From: Bacteroidia bacterium
GTDB lineage: Bacteria > Bacteroidota > Bacteroidia > J057
NCBI GenBank assembly: GCA_030430205.1
Contig: JAUIGE010000018.1
Location: forward strand, 62,001-126,000
Direction: 5' to 3'
DNA: 64,000 nt
Shown in pieces: positions 27,495 through 45,308 of this stretch; position 1 is the stretch's first letter, and the number at the start of each line of letters is the position of its first letter. The notes beneath the pieces are model-generated. The model was not told the origin of the DNA. It saw only the letters and a list, made by a program, of their open reading frames with translations, and did not search any database. A program made the position numbers and the translations under genes.

Positions 27495-30299
27495 ATGGAG
27501 AATATTCAACTCCCCCATGGGAGAACAGTATCCAGCCTACTTTTTTTTGCTTCTTTTTTTATCTTTTTCTTTTTCCCCTCCCACCTCACAGCCCAGGTCA
27601 CAATCAACGGAAAAGTGACAGATGTGAACACTTCCAGCCCTTTGGTTGGGGCCAGGATTATCATTTCGTCCCTTCAGATAGGGACCCAAAGCGATGAGCA
27701 AGGCGATTTTAGCCTGAAGGTTCCTCAAAACCCTCCTTTTGAATTGAGGGTAACCTATTTTGGTTATGATACCCTCGATATACCGGTGACAGACGCCAGC
27801 AGGCGCTTGCGGATCGAGCTAAGCAATGCAGAATTTTCTGTAGGGGAAGTGGAAATATCTGCCAGTGCCGCTGTGGAGCGCCAAAAACAGGCCGTTTTAA
27901 CTATAGAATCCATGAGCTTGCATGCGATCAAGGAAACGCCTGCTTCCAACTTTTACGAAGGTCTGGGACACCTCAAGGGTGTTGATCTGACCTCGGCAAG
28001 CCTGGGCTTCAAGGTGATCAATACCAGGGGCTTCAACAGCACTTCTCCTGTGCGCTCCCTGCAGATCATAGATGGCGTAGACAACCAGTCGCCAGGCCTC
28101 AACTTTTCGCTGGGTAACTTCCTGGGAGCTTCTGAGCTGGATGTAGAGTCCGTGGACCTGATCGTGGGTGCGAGTTCCGCATTTTATGGGCCGAATGCTT
28201 TTAATGGCGTCATTAGCATGAACACGAAAAACCCTTTTATCCATAGAGGCTTATCGGCTATGGTAAAAGTGGGGGAAAGAAACCTGGCGGAAGGCGCCAT
28301 TCGCTACGCGAAAGTATTTTCCAATAAAAACGGCAAAGACCGTTTTGCCTTCAAGCTGAATGTCTTCTATCTGCGTGCAGATGATTGGGAGGCGACCAGC
28401 TTCGATGAAGCTTATCGGGATACCGCGGCAGGAACGGGTTCTGACTATGTCGGAACCGATAATCCCGGCGGCTATGACGCCGTCAATCGCTATGGGGATG
28501 AGCGCTTCAATAAAGCGAAAGGATCTGAAATTATTACCAAGGCGGGCCTGGGGACCATTTATAGAACAGGCTATGAAGAAAAAGACCTGGTCAACTATGA
28601 CACCCGCAATTTCAAATCATCTGTAGCGATGCATTACAAAGTGAGAGATGATGTGGAAATAATCGGTTCTTCCAGTTTTAGTACGGGAACTACTGTGTAT
28701 CAGGGAGATAACAGATATAGTTTGAAAGACATCCGCTTTTTTCAACATAGGGTAGAGATTCAAAAACCCAACAAATTTTTCCTGAGAGCTTATGTGACAC
28801 ATGAGAATGCAGGCAATTCCTATGATGCTGTTTTCACAGCTTTTCGCCTGCAGGAGCAGCAAAAAAGTGACGGGAACTGGTTCAGAGATTACCGTACGGC
28901 TTATGAAAGTACACTCCGGATCCAGGACAGTGTGCGCAGGCTTGAAGGCTATCCTGCACTTCCTACGGCCCCTCCTTTCCGCTTTGATTTTGACAAAGCT
29001 GACAGCGTGATCGCCGCAAATAATTACCATCTGTCGCGATGGCATGACCGGGTAAGAACCCTGGCTGACAACCGCTACCTCGTGCCAGGCACGGCAGCTT
29101 TTGATACGGTTTTCAATGATATCATCTCCCGCCCTGTCAATGACAATGGGACAAGGTTTGTCGATCGCTCCGCCCTTTTCCATGTCCATGGGGAGTACAA
29201 ATTCAAGCCCTCCTGGGCTGAGATAACTACCGGTGGAAATATCCGCCGCTACACGCCTGTCTCGGAAGGCACGATCTTCCTGGATACGGCAGATCGCAAA
29301 ATCACCAATTTTGAATATGGTCTCTATGTGGGCATAGAGAAAAGGTTGATCAACAATACTCTGAGGCTCAACGGCACAATCCGAACGGACAAAAACCAGA
29401 ATTTTAACCGTCTTTTTTCTCCTGCGGCTTCTGCTGTCTGGAATGTAAATGAAACCCACATCCTGCGGGCATCCACTTCATTTGCGGTGAGAAATCCGAC
29501 TTTGGCGGATCAGTTTCTGTATTACAATGTGGGAAGGGCCATTTTGCTTGGAAATATAGAAGGCGTAAATGACCTCATTACCCTGGATTCATACGTTGAT
29601 TACAGCAATACTTTTAACTTCGATACACTTGAATTTTTTGATGTGGCGCCTATTCAGCCCGAGAAAGTGCGCACTTTTGAAATAGGCTATCGTGGTAATT
29701 GGGGGCAGCATATATATGTGGACGCCAGCTATTATTATAGCCGCTATACTGACTTTATTGGGTACCAATTGGGACTGGATGTGAAATTTGCCGGTGTAAG
29801 TGGAGGCATTCCTACTTCCGTGCTGGGCTACCGTGTAGCTTCCAATGCAAAAGATGTGGTGACGACACAGGGCTTTTCTATAGGCGTAAATTATTTTTTC
29901 AAAAAAGGCATTACGTTCAATGGCAATTATTCCTGGAATGTATTGAATACCCAATCTGACGATCCCATTATTCCGGCTTTTAACACGCCTGAGCATAAAT
30001 TTAATGTAGGATTAAGTGGCCGGGATGTTTCCATTGGAGATCTCAAACATGTCGGATTTAGTGTAAATTACAAATGGATTGAGGGATTTCTGTTTGAGGG
30101 TTCCCCTCAATTTACAGGCTTTATCAATACATACGACTTGCTGGATGTGCAGGTAAATCGCTATTTTTCAAGTATAAAATCTACTTTCAAGCTAGGCGCA
30201 TCCAATGTACTGAACAACAAGGTTTTTCAGGTTTATGGTGGCCCGCGCATTGGCCGGATGGCTTATTTCTCCTGGTTATTTGAATTCGACAAAAAATAA
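27495..30299 (+). CDS. TonB-dependent outer membrane receptor with carboxypeptidase-regulatory-like N-terminal domain
   Basis: TINGKVTDVNTSSPLVGARIIISSLQIGTQSDEQGDFSLKVP; plug region VKVINTRGFNSTSPVRSLQIIDGVDNQSPGLNF; C-terminal beta-barrel strands. Confidence 0.93.
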   Translation: MENIQLPHGRTVSSLLFFASFFIFFFFPSHLTAQVTINGKVTDVNTSSPLVGARIIISSLQIGTQSDEQGDFSLKVPQNPPFELRVTYFGYDTLDIPVTDASRRLRIELSNAEFSVGEVEISASAAVERQKQAVLTIESMSLHAIKETPASNFYEGLGHLKGVDLTSASLGFKVINTRGFNSTSPVRSLQIIDGVDNQSPGLNFSLGNFLGASELDVESVDLIVGASSAFYGPNAFNGVISMNTKNPFIHRGLSAMVKVGERNLAEGAIRYAKVFSNKNGKDRFAFKLNVFYLRADDWEATSFDEAYRDTAAGTGSDYVGTDNPGGYDAVNRYGDERFNKAKGSEIITKAGLGTIYRTGYEEKDLVNYDTRNFKSSVAMHYKVRDDVEIIGSSSFSTGTTVYQGDNRYSLKDIRFFQHRVEIQKPNKFFLRAYVTHENAGNSYDAVFTAFRLQEQQKSDGNWFRDYRTAYESTLRIQDSVRRLEGYPALPTAPPFRFDFDKADSVIAANNYHLSRWHDRVRTLADNRYLVPGTAAFDTVFNDIISRPVNDNGTRFVDRSALFHVHGEYKFKPSWAEITTGGNIRRYTPVSEGTIFLDTADRKITNFEYGLYVGIEKRLINNTLRLNGTIRTDKNQNFNRLFSPAASAVWNVNETHILRASTSFAVRNPTLADQFLYYNVGRAILLGNIEGVNDLITLDSYVDYSNTFNFDTLEFFDVAPIQPEKVRTFEIGYRGNWGQHIYVDASYYYSRYTDFIGYQLGLDVKFAGVSGGIPTSVLGYRVASNAKDVVTTQGFSIGVNYFFKKGITFNGNYSWNVLNTQSDDPIIPAFNTPEHKFNVGLSGRDVSIGDLKHVGFSVNYKWIEGFLFEGSPQFTGFINTYDLLDVQVNRYFSSIKSTFKLGASNVLNNKVFQVYGGPRIGRMAYFSWLFEFDKK

Positions 30300-30313
30300 C
30301 CCCGAACTCAATT

Positions 30314-30358
30314 TTTACTAATTCAACATTTACTTAATCAACATTTACTTAATCAATT
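30314..30358. repeat. Three 15-nt tandem repeats just upstream of the hydrolase gene
   Basis: TTTACTAATTCAACA / TTTACTTAATCAACA / TTTACTTAATCAATT. Confidence 0.8.
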
Positions 30359-30364
30359 GCAATT

Positions 30365-31963
30365 ATGAAGAAGCTTAACTTTTTAGTTCTCCTCTTTCTA
30401 TTAGTGGGATTTGCGCTGAGCAGCACAGCTCAGATGCGCTATTCCGAGCAGGTATTTAGCGGTGTGACGGTCACGAAAGACACCTTTGGCGTCAATATCA
30501 GTATTTATCCCATCGTTTTGGGGCAGTCTGCGACTCCGCTTCCTGTACCTTTGACCATGCGTGTGTATGAACCTACGGGAGATACGGTTTCCAAAAGGCC
30601 GCTGATCATCCTGTTACATACAGGGACATATTTTGATCCGGGATTGAATGGAGGCGCATCAGGCACCTATGATGACAGCGTATTGGTAGAGATGGCAAAA
30701 CGTTGGGCCAGGATGGGCTATGTGGTTGCCAGCATAAACAACCGCAAAGGTTGGAATCCGACTTCTGCGGACGCAGAGGTCAAACGTAAAACGGTTCTGC
30801 AAGCTACCTACCGCGCTATTCAGGATGCGCGAACAGCTGTACGCTTTTTTCGTATCACCGCTGCTGGTGCGGGCAATCCTTACCGCATCGATCCCGATAA
30901 AATCGTGATGGGCGGCGACGGAACAGGTGGATATATCACCTATGGTGTGGCTTATCTCAAGCGTTTTGAGCAGGTGAACCTCCTTAAATTTCAGGACTTC
31001 ACAGATCCTATGAATCCCGTTCCTTATGTAGATACTGCTTTGATGGGCGATCCTTATGGGCTTCTTATGCGTCCGCTTAACCTTTCTAACCATGTAGGGG
31101 TTAGTTCTGATATTCAGATGGGCTTTGCCTTAGGTGGTGCATGCGGAGACTCCAGTTGGGTAGAGGCAGGTGATCCTCCATTTGCAGCTTTACAGACAAT
31201 AGGGGATCGTCTTGCTCCCTATAAAGTGGATGACGTTACTGAGCCTATCAACAATGATGTGGTTATTCAAACTGCTTCCGGCGCTTATACCACCGTTGGA
31301 AACAGCAACCTACGTGGTAATAACAGTATTTGGGCAGGGATTCAATGGTCTGATCCTTACAACCAGGCTGCGGCCACCAAAAACGATGGAATTGATGGGC
31401 TTTTCCCACTGGACCCTCCCTTTACCCCTTGTGCCCGTCAGTGTACAACCTCTATTCCGAACGCTCCTATGGATACCTGTGAATATGATGGCGCGCCCTG
31501 GCAATGGTACAATGAGGCGATTTTTACTGCGGGCATTTACCCCTTTATCCCTCAATCCGCTGTATTCACAGCCGCAGAACTCATCTGCTCATATAATATG
31601 AGCAACCCCAATGACCCAGCCCGTTCCAAAACCTACATTGATACCATCGTCGGATTCCTCACCCCACGTATTGTCATTGCACTCGGTCTTCCCAACAATG
31701 TTGGTATCGAAGACCTGAAAGACCTTACCCAGTTGAAGGCTTATCCCAATCCTGCTTCCAGTATCCTGAAACTACAGGCAGGAGACGCTACGCCTATGCG
31801 CGGCGTGGAGGTGTTTGATGCTATGGGAAGACTGGTGTACCGCCAGGATGCTTTGCATACAAATCAGCTCACCATCACAAGAGAAGGCTGGACTTCAGGG
31901 CTCTATATGGTCAAGGTTCACTTTGACAAAGGCTCAGTTGTGCAGAAGGTGATATTTGAATAG
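30365..31963 (+). CDS. Secreted alpha/beta-hydrolase-fold protein with T9SS C-terminal domain
   Basis: Signal peptide; RPLIILLHTGTYF; IDPDKIVMGGDGTGGY at the nucleophile-elbow position; C-terminal LKAYPNPASSILKLQ...TSGLYMVKVHFDKG. Confidence 0.85.
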   Translation: MKKLNFLVLLFLLVGFALSSTAQMRYSEQVFSGVTVTKDTFGVNISIYPIVLGQSATPLPVPLTMRVYEPTGDTVSKRPLIILLHTGTYFDPGLNGGASGTYDDSVLVEMAKRWARMGYVVASINNRKGWNPTSADAEVKRKTVLQATYRAIQDARTAVRFFRITAAGAGNPYRIDPDKIVMGGDGTGGYITYGVAYLKRFEQVNLLKFQDFTDPMNPVPYVDTALMGDPYGLLMRPLNLSNHVGVSSDIQMGFALGGACGDSSWVEAGDPPFAALQTIGDRLAPYKVDDVTEPINNDVVIQTASGAYTTVGNSNLRGNNSIWAGIQWSDPYNQAAATKNDGIDGLFPLDPPFTPCARQCTTSIPNAPMDTCEYDGAPWQWYNEAIFTAGIYPFIPQSAVFTAAELICSYNMSNPNDPARSKTYIDTIVGFLTPRIVIALGLPNNVGIEDLKDLTQLKAYPNPASSILKLQAGDATPMRGVEVFDAMGRLVYRQDALHTNQLTITREGWTSGLYMVKVHFDKGSVVQKVIFE

Positions 31964-31982
31964 GATCAATGATCCTGGTTTT

Positions 31983-32025
31983 AAAAAAGGTTTACTAAAC
32001 TTTTAAAGTTTAGTAAACCTTTTTT
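31983..32025. terminator. Bidirectional intrinsic terminator between the hydrolase gene and ilvA
   Basis: Near-perfect palindrome AAAAAAGGTTTACTAAACTTTTAAAGTTTAGTAAACCTTTTTT. Confidence 0.92.
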
Positions 32026-32038
32026 GAAATCGATTTTT

Positions 32039-33331
32039 TTAAACCAACAACTGAAACAAATCCGGATCATCATTCACCAGTTGAAAGGGAAATCCTTTTT
32101 GTTCCAGCCTCTTCACCAGACCTTCCAAGTCTTCCTTTCTCTCCACCTCAATTCCCACCAAAGCCGGACCCGTATCGCGGTTGGTGCGCTTGGTATATTC
32201 AAAGCGCGTGATATCATCACGCGGCCCGAGCACTTCCGTCAGGAACTCACGCAGCGCGCCCGCGCGCTGGGGAAATCGCACGATAAAATAGTGCTTCAAG
32301 CCCTCATACAAGAGCGATCGCTCTTTGATTTCTTCTGTCCGTGTGATGTCATTGTTGCTGCCGCTGAGGACGCAGACTACATGCTTTCCCTGAATCTCTT
32401 CTTTAAACAAATGCAAGGCCGCTACTGACAAAGCGCCAGCCGGCTCTACGACGATGGCCTCTTCATTGTACAATTGCAAAATCGTGCTGCAAACCAAGCC
32501 TTCAGGAACGGTAATCACATCGTCCAGGACTTCTTTACAGATTTCGAATGTCCATTCGCCTACTTCCCGTACCGCTGCCCCATCCACAAATTTGTCCATC
32601 TCCCTGAGAGTCACGCGCTTACCAGCCTGTAAAGATTGCTGCATGGCAGCCGCGCCTGCGGGTTCTACCCCGATGATCCGGGTGTGGGGGGAGAGGTGTT
32701 TAAAATAGCTCCCCAGGCCAGAGGCCAGACCGCCTCCACCGATAGGCACAAAGACATAGTCAATGGGTCTGGAGCTTTGTTCCAAAATCTCCTTGCCGAC
32801 CGTCGCCTGGCCCGCGATGATCGCGGGATCATCAAAAGGATGAATAAACAAAGCACCGCTTTGTGCCGCTTCCCTGACCGCTGCCGCATGCGCGTCATCA
32901 AAGGTGTCGCCTACCAATTCGATTTCAACGAATTGCTTCCCAAACAAAATGACCTTGTCGACCTTCTGTCGGGGCGTAGTGGCAGGCATAAAAATTTTGC
33001 CGTATACCTGCATTTTATGGCAGGAATAAGCTACGCCCTGGGCATGATTGCCTGCGCTGGCGCAGATCACCCCTTGCCGCCTGGCGGCATCGGCCTGGCT
33101 TTTCATCTTGTTGTATGCGCCGCGAATCTTATAAGATCGCACGATCTGCAGGTCTTCCCGCTTGAGCATCAGCTCACAGCCAAATAGCTGCGACAGATTC
33201 AGGTTTTCCTGAAGGGGCGTGGGTTGCAGGATGCACCGCAGGCGCTGATCCGCTTCCAACACCTGCTCCAGGGGCAATATCCCCTTTCCTTGCTCCAATC
33301 CAACCATCTGCTCATCTGCTAATCTACTCAT
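32039..33331 (-). CDS. ilvA: Threonine ammonia-lyase (threonine dehydratase) with C-terminal regulatory domain
   Basis: KREDLQIVRSYKIRGAYNKM (PLP-lysine), ASAGNHAQGVAYSC, PIGGGGLASGLGSY. The true start may be the later ATG at 33307. Confidence 0.95.
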   Translation of the reverse strand: MSRLADEQMVGLEQGKGILPLEQVLEADQRLRCILQPTPLQENLNLSQLFGCELMLKREDLQIVRSYKIRGAYNKMKSQADAARRQGVICASAGNHAQGVAYSCHKMQVYGKIFMPATTPRQKVDKVILFGKQFVEIELVGDTFDDAHAAAVREAAQSGALFIHPFDDPAIIAGQATVGKEILEQSSRPIDYVFVPIGGGGLASGLGSYFKHLSPHTRIIGVEPAGAAAMQQSLQAGKRVTLREMDKFVDGAAVREVGEWTFEICKEVLDDVITVPEGLVCSTILQLYNEEAIVVEPAGALSVAALHLFKEEIQGKHVVCVLSGSNNDITRTEEIKERSLLYEGLKHYFIVRFPQRAGALREFLTEVLGPRDDITRFEYTKRTNRDTGPALVGIEVERKEDLEGLVKRLEQKGFPFQLVNDDPDLFQLLV

Positions 33332-33350
33332 CTGCTCATCTCTTAAGTCA

Positions 33351-34238
33351 TCATATCAACGTCCATCTCCGCTCCCGCTGCTTCACCAGATCTTCATACT
33401 TTTTCTGAAGCATAAAACCGAAAGTATCCTCCCAGCGCATCACCGGTGTCTGGTCGTCTATCGAGTGGACCTGGGTGATCTCGGCGGCTGTGCCGGCCAG
33501 AAAAACGCCATCGGCGGCTTTCAATTCCTCTAGCGTGATTTTCTTTTCCACGATCTTGATTCTCAGCTCCTTACAAAGCTCCAATACCGTAGCCCGGGTA
33601 ATACCCGGAAGGATATGCCCCGGAGCCGGGGTATACAGGACCTCGTTTTTTTCATAAAAAATATTGGCACCGGAAGCTTCTGCCACATAGCCGTCCATGT
33701 CCAGCATGACACCATCATCAAAGCCCTTGCGGCGGGCTTCATTGGTTGCCAGAATAGAGTTGACATAATGTCCACATACTTTGGCTTCTACATGAAAAGC
33801 CTGAGGATTGGGCCTTTGGTAAGAAGAGGTCATCAGTCGGGGAATCTTGTCTTTGAACAATTTCTCCCAGCGCCAGGCTGCCATAAACAGATGCGTTCGC
33901 TGAGAGCTGTTGAGGCTCATATTGGCCTCTGTATAGATCAGCGGGCGGATATAAGCGTCTGTTAACTCATTCCTTTTCAACAATTCATAACTCATCTCAA
34001 CCAACTCCTGCACAGAATAGGAAACGGGAAGCTGCATCACTTCGGCAGAATGTAAAAGCCGTTCAAAGTGGGCTTCAGCCTTAAAAATAGAAACGCCTTT
34101 ATGCGTTTCATAGGCGCGAATGCCTTCAAATACGCCATTGCCATAATGCAAACTCTGAGAGTAAAAATTGGCACCCGCATCAGCGGCCTTGAGGTATTTA
34201 CCATCAAGCAAGCAAATCGTGTTCTGATTGTAATACAT
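33351..34238 (-). CDS. ilvE: Branched-chain amino acid aminotransferase
   Basis: YGNGVFEGIRAYET, RRKGFDDGVMLDMDGYVAEASGANIFYEKN, LPGITRATVLEL, FLAGTAAEITQV. Confidence 0.95.
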   Translation of the reverse strand: MYYNQNTICLLDGKYLKAADAGANFYSQSLHYGNGVFEGIRAYETHKGVSIFKAEAHFERLLHSAEVMQLPVSYSVQELVEMSYELLKRNELTDAYIRPLIYTEANMSLNSSQRTHLFMAAWRWEKLFKDKIPRLMTSSYQRPNPQAFHVEAKVCGHYVNSILATNEARRKGFDDGVMLDMDGYVAEASGANIFYEKNEVLYTPAPGHILPGITRATVLELCKELRIKIVEKKITLEELKAADGVFLAGTAAEITQVHSIDDQTPVMRWEDTFGFMLQKKYEDLVKQRERRWTLI

Positions 34239-34260
34239 GGTTTTGTTAAAAAGTGGCTAA

Positions 34261-34288
34261 AAAAAAAGCCTTTCTCTGAGAGAAAGGC
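34261..34288 (-). terminator. Attenuator terminator upstream of ilvE
   Basis: On the minus strand GCCTTTCTC-TCA-GAGAAAGGC followed by TTTTTTT, located between the leader ORF and the ilvE start. Confidence 0.8.
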
Positions 34289-34313
34289 CGCTGTATTTTT
34301 AAGTAGATTTTTA

Positions 34314-34400
34314 CTAGAAAAAGGGCCTTTCCCGCTTCGTGACGCTAATAATCACGACAGCAAGCAGCAGACCAAGAATGTTTATGTTAAAAGGATTCAT
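34314..34400 (-). promoter_or_regulatory. Putative branched-chain amino acid leader peptide ORF (28 aa)
   Basis: Minus strand ATG...TAG: MNPFNINILGLLLAVVIISVTKRERPFF. Ile/Leu/Val-rich, immediately upstream of the terminator. Its 3' end carries GAAAGGCC, complementary to GGCCTTTC in the terminator 5' arm. Confidence 0.75.
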
Positions 34401-34601
34401 GTTTGAATTGTAATTCTGCATGCATTTTCTGAATTATTTTCTATAAATCCTACTTTTTATTACATATCATTAGATTTATCATAAAATAATTAACAATTGT
34501 TTAGAAATATTTTGATTTTTATGTCATAAAGCTTTCATTTGGAAGCTGCTTTTCACAAAGCAACAGATAGTACAGATCATTTTCACTTAACATTTTTTCC
34601 C

Positions 34602-37600
34602 ATGAGTTCTGAGTCTTTATATGTCGAAAGGCTGGAACGCGATGCATGTGGGATTGGCTTTATCGCTCAGATAAAAGGGCTAAAGTCACACCAGCTTATT
34701 CAGGATGCTTTGCAGATGCTCAGCCGATTGGAACATCGGGGGGCTTGCGGCGCTGATGCCCATACGGGTGATGGCGCTGGAATTTTGATGCAAATCCCTG
34801 ACGACTTTTTCCGCTCAGTTTGCCCTTTTTTGCTTCCCGAGGCGGGAGCTTATGGGGTCGGTATGCTCTTCCTTTCCCAGGAAGAGCAAACCGCAGAAAG
34901 ATGCTTGCGCATCCTCAGGTCTCTGGCCCGCCAGCAGCAACTCAAGTTGCTGGGATTCAGGGAAGTGCCATGCCTTCCCCTGCATATCGGCCAGACGGCA
35001 GCAGCTTCGCTGCCCCGGATCATGCAAATATTTTTGCAGCCGGAAAATCCTGCCTTCGACCTTGCGCTGGAGCGCAAACTGTACCTTTTCCGCAAAGCCT
35101 GCGAAAAAAGCATGTATGCCGAAGAGATTTCTTCGGATGACTTTTCCTTTTCCTCGCTTTCGGCACAGACCCTTGTGTATAAGGGGATGCTGACAACGGA
35201 GCAATTGGGCGCTTTTTTTCCTGATCTTCAGGATACCCGGATGCGCTCAGCCCTGGCATTGGTACATTCGCGCTTTTCAACCAATACCTTCCCACGCTGG
35301 CCACTGGCACAGCCCTTCAGCTTTCTCGCTCACAATGGCGAGATCAATACCATCCAGGGGAATGTCTATAAGTTGAAGTCCAAAGAGAATCAGCTCGCAT
35401 CGGATATTTTTAGTCCGGAAGAGCTCGAATGGATAAAACCGATCGCCGATCCCAGCGGATCGGATTCTGCCAACCTTAACCGCATCGCGGAGTTTTTATA
35501 CCTCGCCGGCAGGCCGCTGCCGCAAGTGATGATGATGCTCATCCCGGAAGCATGGCAGGGCAATCCGCTGATGCCCAAAGAAAAACGGGCATTTTACGAA
35601 TACCATTCGGCATTGATGGAGCCATGGGATGGCCCGGCTGCCATCTGTTTTACAGATGGAAAAATCGTGGGTGCAACCCTCGATAGAAACGGCCTGCGCC
35701 CCTCGCGCTATTTCATCACCCAGGATGATCGCGTTATCCTTTCCTCAGAAGTCGATACGCTGGACCTGGACCCCGCGATGATACGCGAGCGTGGTCGGCT
35801 GGAGCCGGGCCGAATGTTTGTCGTGGATTTGCAGCAGGGACGCATCATCAGCGATGATGAAGTCAAGCAGCAGATTTGCCAGCAACAGCCCTACGGCCAA
35901 TGGATAGCCCAACATAAAGTCCAATTAGACAAACTACATGAGGTTGACAAGGAGGTTATTTCTGCAAAGAGTGACCTCCTTTTGCATCAAAAAGCTTTTG
36001 GATATACAAGAGAAGATCTCAAGCTGATCCTTGCCCCCATGGCGACTACAGGCAAAGAACCGCTGGGTTCTATGGGAGCGGATACACCTCTGGCAGTGCT
36101 TTCATTTAACAGCCAGCATGTCTCCAGCTATTTCAAGCAGCTGTTTGCCCAGGTAAGCAATCCGCCTATCGATCCTTTGCGGGAAAAGATGGTGATGGCT
36201 TTGGAAAACCTGTTGGGTCCCTGCCTGAACATCCTTCAGGAAACACCCGAGCATTGTCGGCATATCTGCCTGCCTCATCCTGTGCTGGATAAAGCGGCTT
36301 TTCACAAAATCCGCCACCTACAAGATTCCTATTTCAAGCCTGGCGTCCTCTCCCTCTGCTTTTCAACGCAGGGAACCTTGCAGGAAGCGATCCACCGCCT
36401 GCTTACCAAAGCAGAAGAACTCATCCTGAGCGGTGTCAACATCCTGATCCTATCGGATCGGGGCATAGCTGAGGGTCAGCTTCCCATCCCTACCTTACTT
36501 GCAACGGGAGCCGTGCATCACCACCTGATCCAGTGCGGTCTTCGGGCTGAAACGAGCCTCATTGTAGATGGAGGTGATATATTGGAGACCCATCATTTTG
36601 CCTGCCTTCTTGGCTATGGTGCGGAAGGCATTTATCCCCGTCTGGCTTTTGGAAGCATGAAGGACCTTGTTGATCGTCAGCTGGTTAGCGGGGAGATGCA
36701 GGTAGAGGATTTGGAAAAAACCTATGTAAAAGCCATCAATTATGGTCTGCTGAAAATATTCTCCAAACTGGGAATCTCCACTTTGCAATCCTACCGGGCC
36801 GGGCAGGCTTTTGAAATACTGGGCCTGAATGATGAGGTCGTGGAACGTTGTTTCAAAGGCAGCATTTCCCGGATCGGAGGGCTGGATTTTGCAGGCCTTG
36901 AGCGGGAACTGCGAACCCGTCATGAGCTGGCTTTTGAGGAAAATGACTGGATGGAAGAATTGCCGGAAGGTGGTTTTTTTCAATGGAAACAAAAAGGAGA
37001 AGCACATGCTTTTAATCCCGAAACCATCCATTTGCTGCAATATGCTGCCCGACGCAATGATGCGAAGCTTTATAAAAAATATGCAGCCAAAATTAATGAC
37101 GCCAGCAAAAAAGCCTTCACCCTGCGCGGACTCATGCAATTCCAGCAATTGCAGCCTTCTATTCCGCTTGCGGAAGTAGAAAGCAGGGAAAATATTTTCA
37201 AACGGTTCGCCACAGGCGCCATGTCTTTTGGGTCCATCTCCTACGAGGCGCATGCCGCGCTGGCTGTAGCCATGAACCGCATCGGCGGCAAGAGCAATAG
37301 CGGCGAAGGCGGCGAAGACGAAAGGCGTTATACGCCTTTGCCCAATGGCGACTCGGAGCGATCTGCGATCAAGCAAGTGGCCTCCGGCCGCTTTGGCGTC
37401 ACCAGCTACTACCTCAGCCAGGCTGATGAGCTGCAAATCAAAATGGCGCAGGGCGCAAAACCCGGCGAAGGCGGCCAGCTTCCCGGCCACAAAGTGGACG
37501 AGTGGATCGGCAAAGTGCGTCATGCGACGCCCGGTGTAGGGTTGATCTCTCCACCTCCTCATCACGATATTTACTCCATTGAAGACCTTTCCCAATTGAT

Positions 37601-39119
37601 CTTCGATCTCAAAAATGCCAATCCCCATGCTCGCATCAGCGTCAAACTCGTCGCCAAAGCAGGCGTCGGCACCATCGCCGCAGGCGTCGCCAAAGCGCAT
37701 GCTGACCTGATATTGATATCAGGAGGAGCCGGAGGCACGGGCGCTTCGCCCATCAGCTCGATCCGCCATGCGGGTCTGCCCTGGGAGTTGGGCCTCGCGG
37801 AGGCACACCAGACCCTGGTAAAAAACAAACTCAGGAGTCGTGTCAGGCTCCAAACCGATGGGCAGCTTCGCACAGGTAGAGACCTGGCAATAGCAGCCCT
37901 GCTGGGCGCTGAGGAGTTTGGCATTGCCACCGCTGCACTGATCGTGGAGGGTTGTATCCTCATGCGCAAATGCCACCTCAACACCTGCCCCGTGGGCATC
38001 GCAACCCAGGACCAGGAGCTGCGAAAGCGATTTGAAGGAAAAGCCGAGCACCTCGTCAATTTCTTCACCTTCCTCGCAGAGGAGCTGCGGGGGATCATGG
38101 CCCAATTGGGCTTTCGTACGGTCGATGAGATGGTTGGACAAACACAGTTTTTGGCACTCCAGCCTGAATTTTCCCACTGGAAAATAGAGCAGCTCAAACT
38201 CGATCCGATTTTGTACAAAGCGCCAGATCAGGAATCTACAGGCCTTTTTAAGCAAATAGAACAGGATCATGGTCTGGAGCATGTGCTGGATCATCAATTG
38301 ATACAAGCGGCAGCGGAGGTATTGGAAAAGGGGGAAGGCCATCTGGAGGCATTTTTTCGGATAAAAAATACGGACCGGAGCACGGGGGCCATGCTTTCCT
38401 ATGAAATCTCCAAAAGATTTCAGCAAACGGGGCTACAAGCAGGAAGTCTTCATTTCAAATTTCAAGGCTCTGCCGGTCAAAGCTTTGGTGCATTTGGTGC
38501 GCCGGGCATCCGTCTGGAGCTGGAAGGAGAGGCCAATGACTATGTTGGCAAAGGTCTTTCCGGGAGCCAGTTGATCATATATCCGGCACCTACTCCTGGC
38601 TTTGTGCCGCATCAGCATGTGATTTTGGGAAATGTCGCCTTTTATGGCGCTACCTCAGGCGAAGCCTTTTTGTACGGTCGGGCGGGCGAACGCTTTTGCG
38701 TGCGCAATTCGGGGGTCACGGCAGTGGTTGAAGGCGTAGGCGATCACGCCTGTGAGTATATGACCGGGGGGCTGGTCCTGGTCCTGGGCCCCACAGGCCG
38801 CAATTTTGCGGCGGGGATGAGTGGAGGCGTAGCTTATGTCTACGACCCTGAGCAGCAGTTTTCTCAAAAACTGAACCGTGAATTGGTTGATCTCGAAGCC
38901 ATCACTGAGGAGGATCGTGAAAAAATCAGGAGCCTGATCAAAAAACACCATCATTTTACCCAAAGCCAAACCGCTATCCAGATGCTCACGCATTGGGATG
39001 AGGCGGTCTTGTCTTTTGTAAAAGTGATGCCCCGCGAATACAAAGCAGCACTCCTGAAACGAGATCCGCAAAACGCAAAACACAAAACGAATTTTCATGG
39101 GAAAGCCAACGGGATTTAA
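34602..39119 (+). CDS. gltB: Glutamate synthase large subunit
   Basis: Mature Cys motif [48 protein letters not shown]; FMN domain [29 protein letters not shown]. Start set at ATG 34602. Confidence 0.97.
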   Translation: [1505 protein letters not shown]

Positions 39120-40557
39120 AGAATACCAACGGGAAACACCGCCAGTGCGCCCGCCAGCGGAGCGAATCCAGGATTTCAGGGAAATCTACCTGAAATTTGG
39201 CAAACTGAAAACGCGGCAGCAGGCCGCCCGTTGCATGGATTGCGGCATCCCCTTTTGCCACCAGGCTTGCCCCTTGGGCAACGACATTCCCGACTTCAAT
39301 GACGCGATCTATCGCGGAGATTGGGCCTATGCCTACAAGGTATTGGCTTCGACGAACAATTTTCCTGAATTCACAGGTCGCATTTGCCCAGCACCCTGTG
39401 AGGCTTCCTGTGTATTGAACATCAATCAGGACCCGGTTTCGATAGAGTTGATTGAAAAAAAGATCATCGAAGAAGCCTTTCAAAGAGGCCTTGTCAGGCC
39501 TCATCCTCCCAAAAGGCGCAGCGGCAAAAAGATTGCCGTGGTGGGTTCCGGCCCGGCCGGCATGGCCGCCGCCGCACAGCTCAACCAGGCAGGTCACTGG
39601 GTGACTGTCTTTGAGCGTGATGAGCAAATTGGAGGCCTCCTGCGATTGGGTATCCCTGATTTTAAACTCGAAAAACGGATCATTGATCGCCGTATTTCCC
39701 TGATGGAGCAGGAAGGCATTCGCTTCAAAACGGGCGTCAACGTCGGTTTTGACCTAAGCATGGCGGAGTTGGAAAATCAATTTGATGCAGTCCTGCTGTG
39801 CTGCGGCGCGCTTGCGCCCCGGGACCTGCCGATACCCGGCAGGGAGTTGGATGGCGTGGAGTACGCCATGGATTTTTTGACAGATCAAAACCGGCAGATT
39901 GCCGGTTTGGTAGAGAATCTGAATATCCATGCCTATGGCAAAGATGTGATCGTGATCGGCGGCGGCGATACGGGCGCCGACTGTGTCGGCACCGCCAACC
40001 GACAGGGAGCCCTGTCGGTCAGTCAATTGGCCTACCGGGACCAGCCTCCGCTGGAGCGCTCCGAGGACAATCCCTGGCCGGAATGGCCCATGGTCCTGCA
40101 AACGACTTCTTCCCATGAAGAAGGCTGCGAAAGGCAATGGGGCATCCTCACCAAGGCATTTTTGGCGGATGAAAAAGGCCACTTACGGGCCCTGAAAACA
40201 ATAGAAGTGAATTGGGAGCAAAATGAAGCCGGGCAGAGAGGGAAAATGACAGAAATTCCCGGAACAGAAAAAGAAATGCCCTGCCAACTGGCCCTTCTGG
40301 CTGTAGGCTTTTTGCATACCGAACACACCGGTCCGGTAGATCAGCTTGGGCTTGAACTTAGCAGCAGAGGGCATGTAAAATGCACCCAATACCAGACAAG
40401 TCATGAAAAAGTCTTCGCCGCAGGCGATATGCGCAGAGGTCAATCTCTGGTTGTCTGGGCTATACACGAAGGGCGGCAAGCCGCCAGAGCCATAGACACC
40501 TTCCTGACAGGAAGTTCAAAATTGCCATCAAAAAACAGTTCCAAGCTGCAAGCATAA
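39097..40557 (+). CDS. gltD: Glutamate synthase small subunit
   Basis: RCMDCGIPFCHQACPLGNDIPDFND, ICPAPCEASCVLNI, GSGPAGMAAAAQL, GGGDTGADCVGTANRQGA. Overlaps the gltB stop by 23 nt. Confidence 0.97.
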   Translation: MGKPTGFKEYQRETPPVRPPAERIQDFREIYLKFGKLKTRQQAARCMDCGIPFCHQACPLGNDIPDFNDAIYRGDWAYAYKVLASTNNFPEFTGRICPAPCEASCVLNINQDPVSIELIEKKIIEEAFQRGLVRPHPPKRRSGKKIAVVGSGPAGMAAAAQLNQAGHWVTVFERDEQIGGLLRLGIPDFKLEKRIIDRRISLMEQEGIRFKTGVNVGFDLSMAELENQFDAVLLCCGALAPRDLPIPGRELDGVEYAMDFLTDQNRQIAGLVENLNIHAYGKDVIVIGGGDTGADCVGTANRQGALSVSQLAYRDQPPLERSEDNPWPEWPMVLQTTSSHEEGCERQWGILTKAFLADEKGHLRALKTIEVNWEQNEAGQRGKMTEIPGTEKEMPCQLALLAVGFLHTEHTGPVDQLGLELSSRGHVKCTQYQTSHEKVFAAGDMRRGQSLVVWAIHEGRQAARAIDTFLTGSSKLPSKNSSKLQA

Positions 40558-40619
40558 GCATCCTCTAATCTTCTCATTTTCTAATTCTCTAATTCTCTCA
40601 TAATCTTTTATCCCACATC

Positions 40620-42122
40620 ATGAGTGACAAAATTTTTGTATTTGATACCACCCTCCGAGATGGAGAACAGGTGCCAGGGTGTCAGCTCAACATGCATGAA
40701 AAAATCGAGTTGGCTTTAGCACTCGAAAGGCTCGGTGTTGACATCATTGAAGCTGGTTTTCCGATCTCCAGCCCTGGAGATTTTCAGTCTGTTTTGGCTG
40801 TTTCCAAGGCTGTAAAAGAATCAGTTGTTTGTGGCCTGACCCGGGCAGTCAAAAAAGACATTGATTGTGCTGCGGAGGCGCTGCAGCCAGCTCGCAGAAA
40901 ACGCATCCACACAGGCATCGGGGCTTCTGATATGCATATCGAACATAAGTTTCGCTGTAGCCGGGAGGAAATCCTCGAAAGAGCTGCGGACGCCACGAAG
41001 TACGCCCGAAACTATGTAGACGATGTGGAGTTTTACTGCGAAGATGCAGGAAGAGCTGATCATGCGTTTCTGGCTCGCATGGTTGAGACAGTTATTGCAG
41101 CCGGTGCCACTGTTGTCAATATTCCAGATACAACGGGCTACTGTCTTCCTGAGCAATATGCGGCAATCATTAGCTACCTTATGAACAATGTGCCCAATAT
41201 TGATAAGGCCATTTTATCTGTGCACTGTCACAATGACCTGGGGCTGGCTACCGCAAACTCTTTGGCGGGCCTTTACGCAGGAGCAAGACAATTGGAATGC
41301 ACCATCAACGGTATTGGTGAACGCGCAGGGAATACTTCTATGGAAGAAGTTGTCATGGCCATCAGAAGCCATCGTCAGAGCCTGAATCTGCATACAGACA
41401 TTCAAGTCAACCAGATTTATGGCATGAGCAAGATGGTTACCAGATTGATGAAAATGCCTGTTCAACCCAATAAAGCTATAGTAGGCAGAAATGCTTTTGC
41501 CCACTCCTCCGGTATTCATCAGGACGGTTTTCTCAAAAACCGCGAAAACTACGAAATCATCAACCCACATGATGTTGGGATTTCACAATCTCTGATTCTG
41601 CTCACGGCACGCTCGGGCAAGCATGCCCTAAAACATCGCTTGCAAAAGCTTGGATACATGCCTACACAGGAAGAGCTATTAGAAATCTATGACAGGTTTC
41701 TTGTCATGGCTGATGAGCAAAAAGAAATTTTTGATGACGATCTTAGAACCCTCATGGGAGAAGGAGCTGACTCATCAAATCAGGAAAGACAGCTGGAATT
41801 AGAAGAACTGACGGTTGTTTGTGGAAAAGGAAAACCCGCCACAGCCTCTGTTTCCATCAACCATAATGGGAAATCTTTCAAAGCTGAAACCACTGGCAAC
41901 GGACCGGTAGATGCCACCATCAAAGCCATTGATGAAGTAATGAAATATGAAGTGAAATTGGAAGAATATCTGATTCAGGCTATCACTGAAGGCAGCGACG
42001 ATCTGGGCAAAGCCCATATTCAGATCTCCATGGATGGTGCCTACTATTATGGTTTTGGGTCTGATACGGATACCATTCATGCTACTGCTAAGGCTTATTT
42101 GGATGCATTGAGTAAAGTATAA
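40620..42122 (+). CDS. leuA: 2-isopropylmalate synthase
   Basis: [63 protein letters not shown]-terminal regulatory domain. Confidence 0.95.
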
Positions 42123-42202
42123 GAATAGAGAGGAGAGAACAGAGAATAGAGACAAATCCCGAATGGTCCCTCTTCTCTACTCTCTGCTCTCTCATCTAAA
42201 CT

Positions 42203-43600
42203 ATGAAAAACATATTCGACAAAATCTGGGATGCACACATCGTACAATCCGTCCAGGACGGACCAGATGTATTTTATATAGACCGCCACTTCATTCATGA
42301 AGTGACCAGCCCTCAGGCCTTTACAGGCCTGCGAGAGCGCGGTCTTCCGGTCTTTCGACCGAAGCAAACGATCGCCACCGCGGACCACAATGTCCCTACG
42401 GAGGATCAGGACAAACTCATCAAAGAAGCGCTTTCGCGCCTGCAGGTGGATACGCTGGTAAGCAATTGCAAAGAATTTGGTCTGGAGCTGTATGGGCTGG
42501 GCCATCCTTATCAGGGGATAGTGCATGTCATCGGGCCAGAGCTTGGCATCACACAACCGGGTATGACCATCGTCTGTGGCGACAGCCACACATCGACGCA
42601 TGGTGCCTTTGGCTGTATCGCTTTTGGAATCGGTACCAGTGAAGTGGAGCAGGTACTTGCTACCCAATGCATTTTGCAGCAAAAAGCGCAGAGCATGCGC
42701 ATCACCATTGATGGTGAATTAGGCAAAGGCGTTACCGCCAAAGACCTGATACTGTATGTGATCTCAAAATTGGGAACTGCTGGTGGCACAGGACATGTGG
42801 TGGAATATGCAGGTTCTGCTATTCGGTCATTATCCATGGAAGGTCGCATGACCGTCTGCAATATGAGCATCGAGATGGGTGCCCGGGGGGGGCTGATTGC
42901 CCCGGATCAAACCACCTTTGATTACATCAAAGGGCGTGAATTTGCGCCTCAGGGCGTCGACTGGGAAACCGCCGTGATGAAATGGAAGGAACTTCCTTCT
43001 GATCCCGGTGCCACTTTCGACAAGGAATACCACTTCGATGCAGCAGACATTGAGCCTATGATCACCTATGGTACCAACCCAGGCATGGGATTGGGCATTA
43101 GTCAACGTATCCCTCAAAAAGAGGATCTCGCTTCTGAGCGGGATGGCAGACAGCTGCAAAAGTCATTGGCCTATATGAACCTACAGGCAGGCCAGCCGAT
43201 GTTGGGTCAGCAGATAGATTATGTCTTCATCGGCTCTTGTACCAATTCCCGGATAGAGGATTTGCGGGAAGTAGCTGCCTTTGTGAAAGGCAAGAAGAAA
43301 GCAGATCATGTACAGGTGCTGATCGTTCCGGGCTCTCAACAAGTGAGAGAGCAAAGCCAAAAAGAAGGTCTCGATAAGATTCTCGCAGAAGCAGGCTTCT
43401 TCCTTCGTGAACCCGGCTGTTCAGCCTGTTTGGGCATGAATGAGGACAAAGTTCCTCCGGGGAAGTATTGCGTTTCCACTTCAAATCGCAATTTCGAAGG
43501 GAGACAAGGACCAGGTTCCCGCACCTTTTTGGCGAGTCCGCTTACGGCTGCTGCGGCAGCTGTCGCAGGTAAGATTGTGGATGTAAGGGAATATTTGTAA
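42203..43600 (+). CDS. leuC: 3-isopropylmalate dehydratase large subunit
   Basis: [84 protein letters not shown]. Confidence 0.97.
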
Positions 43601-43608
43601 AACAAAAT

Positions 43609-44187
43609 ATGACAATGAAAGCATTTACTACTATCCATAGCAGCGCAATTCCGTTGCCGATAGAAAATATAGATACAGATCAAATCATTCCCGCCCGTTT
43701 CCTCAAAGCGACTACGCGCGAAGGTTTTGGTGAAAACCTCTTTTGCGACTGGCGCTATCACAAAGATGGAAGCGAAAAAGCTGATTTTGTGCTGAATGAT
43801 TTGACTTATTCAGGTGAGATTCTGGTTGCAGGAGCCAATTTTGGATGTGGGTCCAGCCGGGAGCATGCTGCCTGGGCGATAGGCGATTATGGCTTCCGGG
43901 TAGTTGTGTCCAGTTTTTTTGCAGATATTTTTAAGAATAATGCCTTGAACAATGGCATCCTGCCGGTTCAGGTTTCTGAGGATTTTTTGCAAAAGCTTTT
44001 TGCCAGCATTCAGCAAAATCCGGGAACGGAGATCACTGTTGATTTAGATAATCAGAAGATCAGTTTTGAAGGAGGGAAAGCCTCTTTTGACATTAATTCT
44101 TATAAGAAGATGTGTCTGCAAAAGGGGTATAGTGACCTGGATTTTTTGTTGAGTTTGAGGGAAAAGATTGGAGCTTTTGAAATGTGA
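43609..44187 (+). CDS. leuD: 3-isopropylmalate dehydratase small subunit
   Basis: [37 protein letters not shown]. Confidence 0.97.
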
Positions 44188-44222
44188 GCCTTTGTGCGGT
44201 CAAATCACCAAAATTTAATTTT

Positions 44223-45308
44223 ATGAAAAAATCATTCAATATAGCCGTACTGGCCGGGGACGGAATCGGCCCCGAAGTCATGCAGGAGGCGATCAAGGTG
44301 CTTCACGCTCTTGAAGAAAAAAGCGGCATTGCCTTCCATTTTAATGAGGCCCTGATCGGTGCCGCAGCCATAGACGCCACTGGCGACCCGCTCCCACCAG
44401 CTACGCTTGAGGCATGCCTGGAAGCTGACGCTGTCCTTTTCGGCGCTATTGGCGATCCCAAATACGACAATGCTCCTGACCTCAAGGTCAGGCCGGAGCA
44501 GGGCCTGCTGGGCCTCCGAAAGGCCCTGGGCCTCTATGCCAACCTCCGACCGGTGGTCTGCTACCCGGCACTGGTGCAGGCTTCTCCGCTGCGCGAAGAG
44601 ATCGTCTCCGGTACGGATTTATTGATCATCCGGGAGCTGATCAGCGGTATTTACTTCGGGCAGCCTCGTGGCCGCAGCGAAGATGGCAATACCGCCTTTG
44701 ATAGCTGTGTCTATCATCGGGATGAAATCGAGCGTATCGCTCATCTCGCCTTTGGCTATGCCAAAGGGCGCAGAGGCAAGCTGACGCTTGTCGACAAGGC
44801 CAATGTGCTGGCGACATCGCGGCTGTGGCGCGAGACGGTGACAGCCATGGCACCTTCTTATCCTGAAGTACAGTTTGAAACGCTTTTTGTCGACAATGCA
44901 GCGATGAAACTGATTCAGCAGCCAACGGCTTTTGATGTGGTACTTACGGGAAATTTGTTTGGCGATATCCTCTCTGATGAAGCTTCGGTAATAACCGGCT
45001 CCCTGGGTACCCTGGCTTCTGCTTCTGTAGGCATCGAGACATCGCTTTTTGAACCGGTGCACGGTTCGTATCCGCAGGCGGCCGGTCAAAACCGGGCCAA
45101 TCCTATGGCGATGGTCCTTTCAGCAGCGATGCTGCTGGAGAGCCTGGGCCTAACTGCCGAAGCCGGGCATATACGTCAGGCTGTAGATGCCGCGATCCAG
45201 GCCCAGGTCATGACAGAAGACCTGATGCAGGGCAAGGCAAGTACCACAGAAGTGGGCGATTTCATCGCCCGATACATATCGGAACGGGCGATGACGAGCA
45301 ATTTCTAA
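44223..45308 (+). CDS. leuB: 3-isopropylmalate dehydrogenase
   Basis: IAVLAGDGIGPEVMQEA, VDNAAMKLIQQPTAFDVVLTGNLFGDILSDEASVITGSLG, EPVHGSYPQAAGQNRANPMAM. Start set at ATG 44223. Confidence 0.96.
   Translation: MKKSFNIAVLAGDGIGPEVMQEAIKVLHALEEKSGIAFHFNEALIGAAAIDATGDPLPPATLEACLEADAVLFGAIGDPKYDNAPDLKVRPEQGLLGLRKALGLYANLRPVVCYPALVQASPLREEIVSGTDLLIIRELISGIYFGQPRGRSEDGNTAFDSCVYHRDEIERIAHLAFGYAKGRRGKLTLVDKANVLATSRLWRETVTAMAPSYPEVQFETLFVDNAAMKLIQQPTAFDVVLTGNLFGDILSDEASVITGSLGTLASASVGIETSLFEPVHGSYPQAAGQNRANPMAMVLSAAMLLESLGLTAEAGHIRQAVDAAIQAQVMTEDLMQGKASTTEVGDFIARYISERAMTSNF

Follow-up and report, generated by a model that had tools for sequence, protein, structure and literature searches.

Genes and Features around ilvE

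The window analysed here (the whole stretch of DNA, 64,000 nucleotides) carries ilvE and ilvA one after the other on the minus strand, preceded by a short ORF and a terminator hairpin. The next gene upstream of ilvE, gltB, is divergent, and there is no co-directional upstream gene for the terminator to serve; it therefore sits in the 5′ leader of ilvE, and no other gene seen in that stretch ends at it. The features on which the analysis is built are the following.

32039..33331, minus strand: ilvA, encoding threonine ammonia-lyase; follows ilvE in the unit (above cut-off for NCBIfam TIGR02079 and NF006390)
33351..34238, minus strand: ilvE, encoding branched-chain amino acid aminotransferase; the structural gene that comes first (above cut-off for NCBIfam TIGR01122 and NF005146)
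34259..34267, minus strand: T9 tract of the intrinsic terminator (read from the sequence)
34267..34276, minus strand: region 4, GAGAAAGGCT, 3′ arm of the terminator (terminator scan and fold)
34280..34289, minus strand: region 3, GGCCTTTCTC, common to the antiterminator (2:3) and the terminator (3:4)
34314..34400, minus strand: ilvE leader-peptide ORF, MNPFNINILGLLLAVVIISVTKRERPFF-stop, 28 codons (read from the sequence)
34324..34333, minus strand: region 2, GGGAAAGGCC, 5′ strand of the antiterminator, leader codons 23–26 (duplex with region 3)
34341..34376, minus strand: control-codon run LGLLLAVVIISV, codons 9–20 (read from the sequence)
34369..34373, minus strand: region 1, GGTCT, outer 5′ strand of a protector helix, pairing with 34328–34324 (minimum-free-energy fold)

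Further along the window, at 39097–45308, a gltD-like gene is followed by leuA (TIGR00973) and by ORFs resembling leuC, leuD and leuB, all co-directional with gltB and divergent from ilvEA; ahead of leuA, which here comes after gltBD, no leader peptide was seen.

Leader ORF, Terminator and Antiterminator

Direct reading of the minus strand places the leader ATG at 34400 and its TAG stop codon at 34316–34314, exactly the 28-codon ORF quoted in the original prediction. Its 28 codons include 4 Ile, 4 Leu and 3 Val, and at its densest the ORF has I, L or V at 9 of 12 positions. Starting instead from an in-frame ATG at 34421 would extend the leader by 7 codons (MQNYNSN); no Shine-Dalgarno sequence was seen. 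When the 200 nt before the hairpin were shuffled 10,000 times with dinucleotides preserved, an ORF at least as ILV-rich and suitably spaced arose in 0.13% of the shuffles (P = 0.0013); among 33 terminator-like hairpins across the window, such an ORF precedes just the one before ilvE.

The leader stop lies 24 nt from the hairpin of an intrinsic terminator (34289–34267) consisting of a 10 bp stem, then T9, with ilvE 28 nt downstream; its arms, GCCTTTCTC (34288–34280) and GAGAAAGGC (34276–34268), enclose the loop TCA. The predicted order of hairpin, T run and ilvE ATG at 34238 agrees with our reading. The complementarity claimed between the end of the leader and the terminator, GAAAGGCC with GGCCTTTC (34331–34324 with 34289–34282), is also exact and reaches further than claimed, as region 2 (34333–34324) pairs with region 3 (34289–34280) over 10 bp, including one G-U, at −18.0 kcal/mol. 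In 200 shuffles of the leader, not one gave pairing with this arm as good as that of the real sequence. The 2:3 antiterminator and the 3:4 terminator are mutually exclusive, both using the 5′ arm of the terminator.

The whole leader folds more stably than shuffles (z = −2.8), with helices 1:2 and 3:4 in its minimum-energy fold; the leader folded alone reaches only z = −1.4. Before region 3 is made, folding predicts region 2 to be paired upstream with P = 0.79.

Comparison across the Class

Our searches with the IlvE of the window covered 60 relatives and 396 genomes of the class, with named genomes added, and an upstream region was deemed to hold an ILV-rich leader if an ORF with at least 8 such residues in some 12 consecutive ones ended 12–50 nt before a terminator. 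Of the regions upstream of ilvE, 62 have a terminator, and 37 of these carry such a leader, where shuffles lead one to expect 0.9; leader, terminator and complementarity between the two recur together in the class sample, at some 40 loci of ilvE and several of ilvD. The leader sequences differ widely from one genome to another while the ILV content stays, as illustrated by MNVDLLVLFIVVVVIISPPWERLL, MQTLQIIIIRILLVVLLVPSE and MKLNNIIILIVVISVVIITSPAMRMV among relatives, by MANKLHNAIFNNSTAIIAVIIIVIIIPVFRGG with its GTG start in Hydrotalea sandarakina and, before ilvD in other families, by similar leaders such as MIALHTSINLAILHIIRVVVVSSGM. One genome of the same genus held no close IlvE.

Co-variation was examined in 58 leader–terminator units at 51 loci; one has to keep in mind that an ILV filter picked these, so that the pairing counts as independent evidence and the leader content does not. 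(Two ilvD units, L108 and L113, have the look of a membrane-protein ORF, which probably makes them false positives; they were kept in the counts.) The gap from stop codon to hairpin has a median of 24.5 nt and falls within 17–35 nt in 52 of the 58 units, where the filter allowed 8–110. The terminators vary between lineages (GCCTTTCTC, AACCCGCC, CCATTCC, GCCGCTCC and others), and the ends of the leaders vary along with them so as to stay complementary. Pairing of regions 2 and 3 beats 95% of shuffles (P ≤ 0.05) in 48 of the 58 units, and across all 58 the leader end pairs better with its own terminator than with those of other units (Wilcoxon P = 8e-11, a value that overstates independence because some loci are closer relatives than others). 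The two comparative checks proposed with the original prediction, a conserved leader and compensatory changes in the stems, thus both came out in its favour.

No such leader adjoins ilvE at 12 loci, 10 of which belong to Sphingobacterium (L037, L038, L040–L046 and L048); in these ten, the nearest upstream terminator is apparently that of atpC. The crude ILV filter had caught there the end of the upstream gene (apparently atpC, by sequence) together with its terminator, and these candidates were excluded. Regulation of ilvE at the Sphingobacterium loci seems to differ.

The promoter consensus of Bacteroidota includes a −7 box, TAnnTTTG. At 20 of the 51 loci, a perfect copy is found in the 150 nt preceding the start of the first leader, mostly 16–42 nt before it, and only 2 of the 51 loci show a copy in the interval from terminator to gene. 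The window shows no recognisable box of this kind either upstream of the leader or between the hairpin and ilvE, and a classical Bacteroidota promoter, looked for ahead of its leader, did not turn up; a start downstream of the hairpin, which would have left the leader out of the message, likewise finds no box there. The leader would belong to the ilvE transcript, all the more because only 28 nt part the hairpin from the gene.

Modelling the Position of the Ribosome

In our folding model, the RNA hidden under the ribosome was moved codon by codon along the leader, the window RNA being transcribed through region 3. The model leaves the antiterminator free with the ribosomal A site on codons 6–19 (I6–S19): 2:3 pairing is predicted at about 1.0 for codons 6–18 (I6–I18), then falls to 0.65 at V20, 0.40 at T21 and 0.02–0.03 from K22 to the stop codon. 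Setting the edge of the footprint anywhere between 11 and 15 nt moves the modelled switch by only one or two codons. The model thereby agrees with the proposal that a ribosome reaching the stop codon covers region 2. In all 58 units, it gives more 2:3 pairing with a ribosome stalled in the ILV core, taken at its best position, than with a ribosome at the stop codon.

At equilibrium with no ribosome, the model also favours 2:3 (0.99), and either helix 1:2 therefore holds kinetically or termination needs translation of the leader. As far as the model goes, this ribosome-free preference is the sole point where the anatomy departs from the plain textbook case. An anatomy with helix 1:2 absent was considered and dropped, region 2 being paired upstream in most units upon folding.

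A Probable Ribosome-Mediated Attenuator and Its Alternatives

Judging from the sequence, ilvE-ilvA is very probably under the control of a classical ribosome-mediated transcription attenuator. RNA polymerase would transcribe the leader, which a ribosome would translate at the same time. With Ile-, Leu- or Val-tRNA scarce, the ribosome would stall in the LGLLLAVVIISV run, breaking the 1:2 helix and freeing region 2, which would pair with region 3 as an antiterminator, block the terminator and let ilvE-ilvA be transcribed by read-through. With Ile, Leu and Val plentiful, the ribosome would advance to the stop codon and cover region 2; regions 3 and 4 would then pair and transcription would end in the T9 tract. 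Such an attenuator would respond to all three amino acids, and the genes below it, by their NCBIfam assignments, are makers of the very amino acids presumably sensed. The ilv/leu type of attenuation put forward in the original prediction is the reading that the class comparison strongly supports and with which the folding model agrees.

Other readings have to be weighed. T-box and riboswitch RNAs also form terminator/antiterminator pairs before amino-acid genes. Conservation here concerns codons that keep their spacing, not an RNA fold; moreover, no Rfam family was matched at gathering score in the window (26000–40000 and 34200–34620) or at seven loci, the matches in the window stretch and related loci being sub-threshold, unrelated or of a generic leader type. 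A protein- or ligand-sensing RNA in place of a ribosome-sensing leader is, in our view, the least probable of the alternatives, hardly to be expected. The hairpin could, on the other hand, be an ordinary intrinsic terminator guarding against stray transcription between divergent operons, with a chance ORF ahead of it: the stretch does lie between the divergent gltB and ilvE, and a hairpin with a T tract is in itself common, as the 33 terminator-like sites of the window illustrate. Such a terminator would, however, end nothing annotated on the minus strand, and chance fits poorly with the ILV leader (P = 0.0013) and the antiterminator (P < 0.005) in the window alone, let alone with their recurrence, with co-variation, at about 40 ilvE loci, so that we hold this to be very unlikely.

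We give as little credit to a leader acting on the translation of ilvE or via Rho, by reinitiation or coupling, and not through the intrinsic terminator. Genes of Bacteroidota are indeed commonly preceded by short ORFs, for which a role in reinitiation has been suggested (PMC4833913), yet the leader stop lies about 75 nt from the ilvE start, against a peak at 11–14 bp in that study; every unit listed has a U-tract after its hairpin, and the start region of ilvE lies outside the hairpin.

Other Leaders in the Same Genome

The attenuator of ilvE is not the only candidate in this genome. Its ilvD is preceded by an ILV leader, MLLWVINNVIIVLVGLIPHP, and a terminator (L103, G000:C66), and the ilvEA and ilvD units may therefore respond in parallel. 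Before hisG lie a His leader, MFTQFHHIHHHTTTDSSGG (FHHIHHH), and a terminator (L119, G000:C65), and before a trpE-like gene a Trp leader, MNTFSQNMSFNWWWHTSIPLVGHRRIL (NWWWH), with a strong terminator (L135, G000:C68), which no Rfam family matches at its gathering threshold. With ilv, his and trp leaders in one genome, leader-peptide attenuation appears to be a general device of the organism. His-rich leaders similar to that of hisG were also observed in relatives (L120, L122, L125, L126, L128 and L129). No leader was evident at two aspartokinase loci.

Known Systems

The closest textbook likeness is the ilvGMEDA leader (ilvL) of E. coli, which shares the multivalent Ile/Leu/Val peptide, a terminator with an arm in common with the antiterminator, and ilv genes downstream; it belongs to another phylum, whereas here region 2 lies within the leader end and the operon comprises ilvE-ilvA only. 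The peptide core here looks like that of the E. coli ilvL peptide (VVIIS / VVISVVVIII), a likeness that may be convergence imposed by the Ile and Val codons. The ilvBNC attenuator of Corynebacterium glutamicum, as described in PMC11857589, likewise combines a leader and a three-hairpin attenuator before an Ile/Leu/Val operon, in a different phylum and before a different operon.

Within Bacteroidota, the Bacteroid-trp motif (RF01692), listed in PMC2864571, is similarly a cis-regulatory leader of an amino-acid operon, the amino acid being trp; at the gathering threshold, not even the trp leader of the present genome matched it. For Flavobacterium psychrophilum, PMC9723704 reports strong signs that leader peptides attenuate amino-acid operons, which its main text does not name, and leader-like sORFs are mentioned in B. 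thetaiotaomicron (PMC7366714). To call such leaders sparsely documented in Bacteroidota, as the original prediction did, is thus fair; to call them undocumented would be wrong, given PMC2864571 and PMC9723704. The mechanism is classic, and amino-acid leaders as well as a trp attenuator motif have already been reported in Bacteroidota. We found no direct report of an ilv leader in Bacteroidota in the literature covered, which included few subscription papers.

What the present comparison brings is base-level evidence for a coupling of transcription and translation in Bacteroidota close enough to permit ribosome-sensing attenuation of ilv, his and trp operons, in a phylum whose leaders of this kind are rarely annotated and escape Rfam.

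Tandem Units in Relatives

The less expected part is the tandem arrangement found in relatives. At least 7 loci (L005, L051, L063, L071, L073, L081 and L084) carry two complete units in series before ilvE, each with its own terminator and its own complementarity between leader end and terminator; the ilvE locus of the window has a single unit. We lean towards regarding the window element as one member of an uncatalogued, class-wide set of Bacteroidota BCAA attenuators, in which some lineages would have serial double units acting as two consecutive Ile/Leu/Val checkpoints before one operon. By analogy, the mgtCBR leader of Salmonella, with two leader ORFs in one leader RNA, may be taken as the nearest precedent that we found; it senses ATP and proline, whereas the Bacteroidota tandems repeat the Ile/Leu/Val signal with one terminator per unit (PMC3641672). 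What is gained by adding a second checkpoint for one set of amino acids could be read, as from a natural experiment, in the tandem ilvE attenuators of the relatives.

In several tandem loci, the first leader is immediately preceded by a TACATTTG box, and both units would therefore share one transcript. The first leaders sometimes end in TGMV and the second often in PPG or similar; at L083, the second leader looks degenerate.
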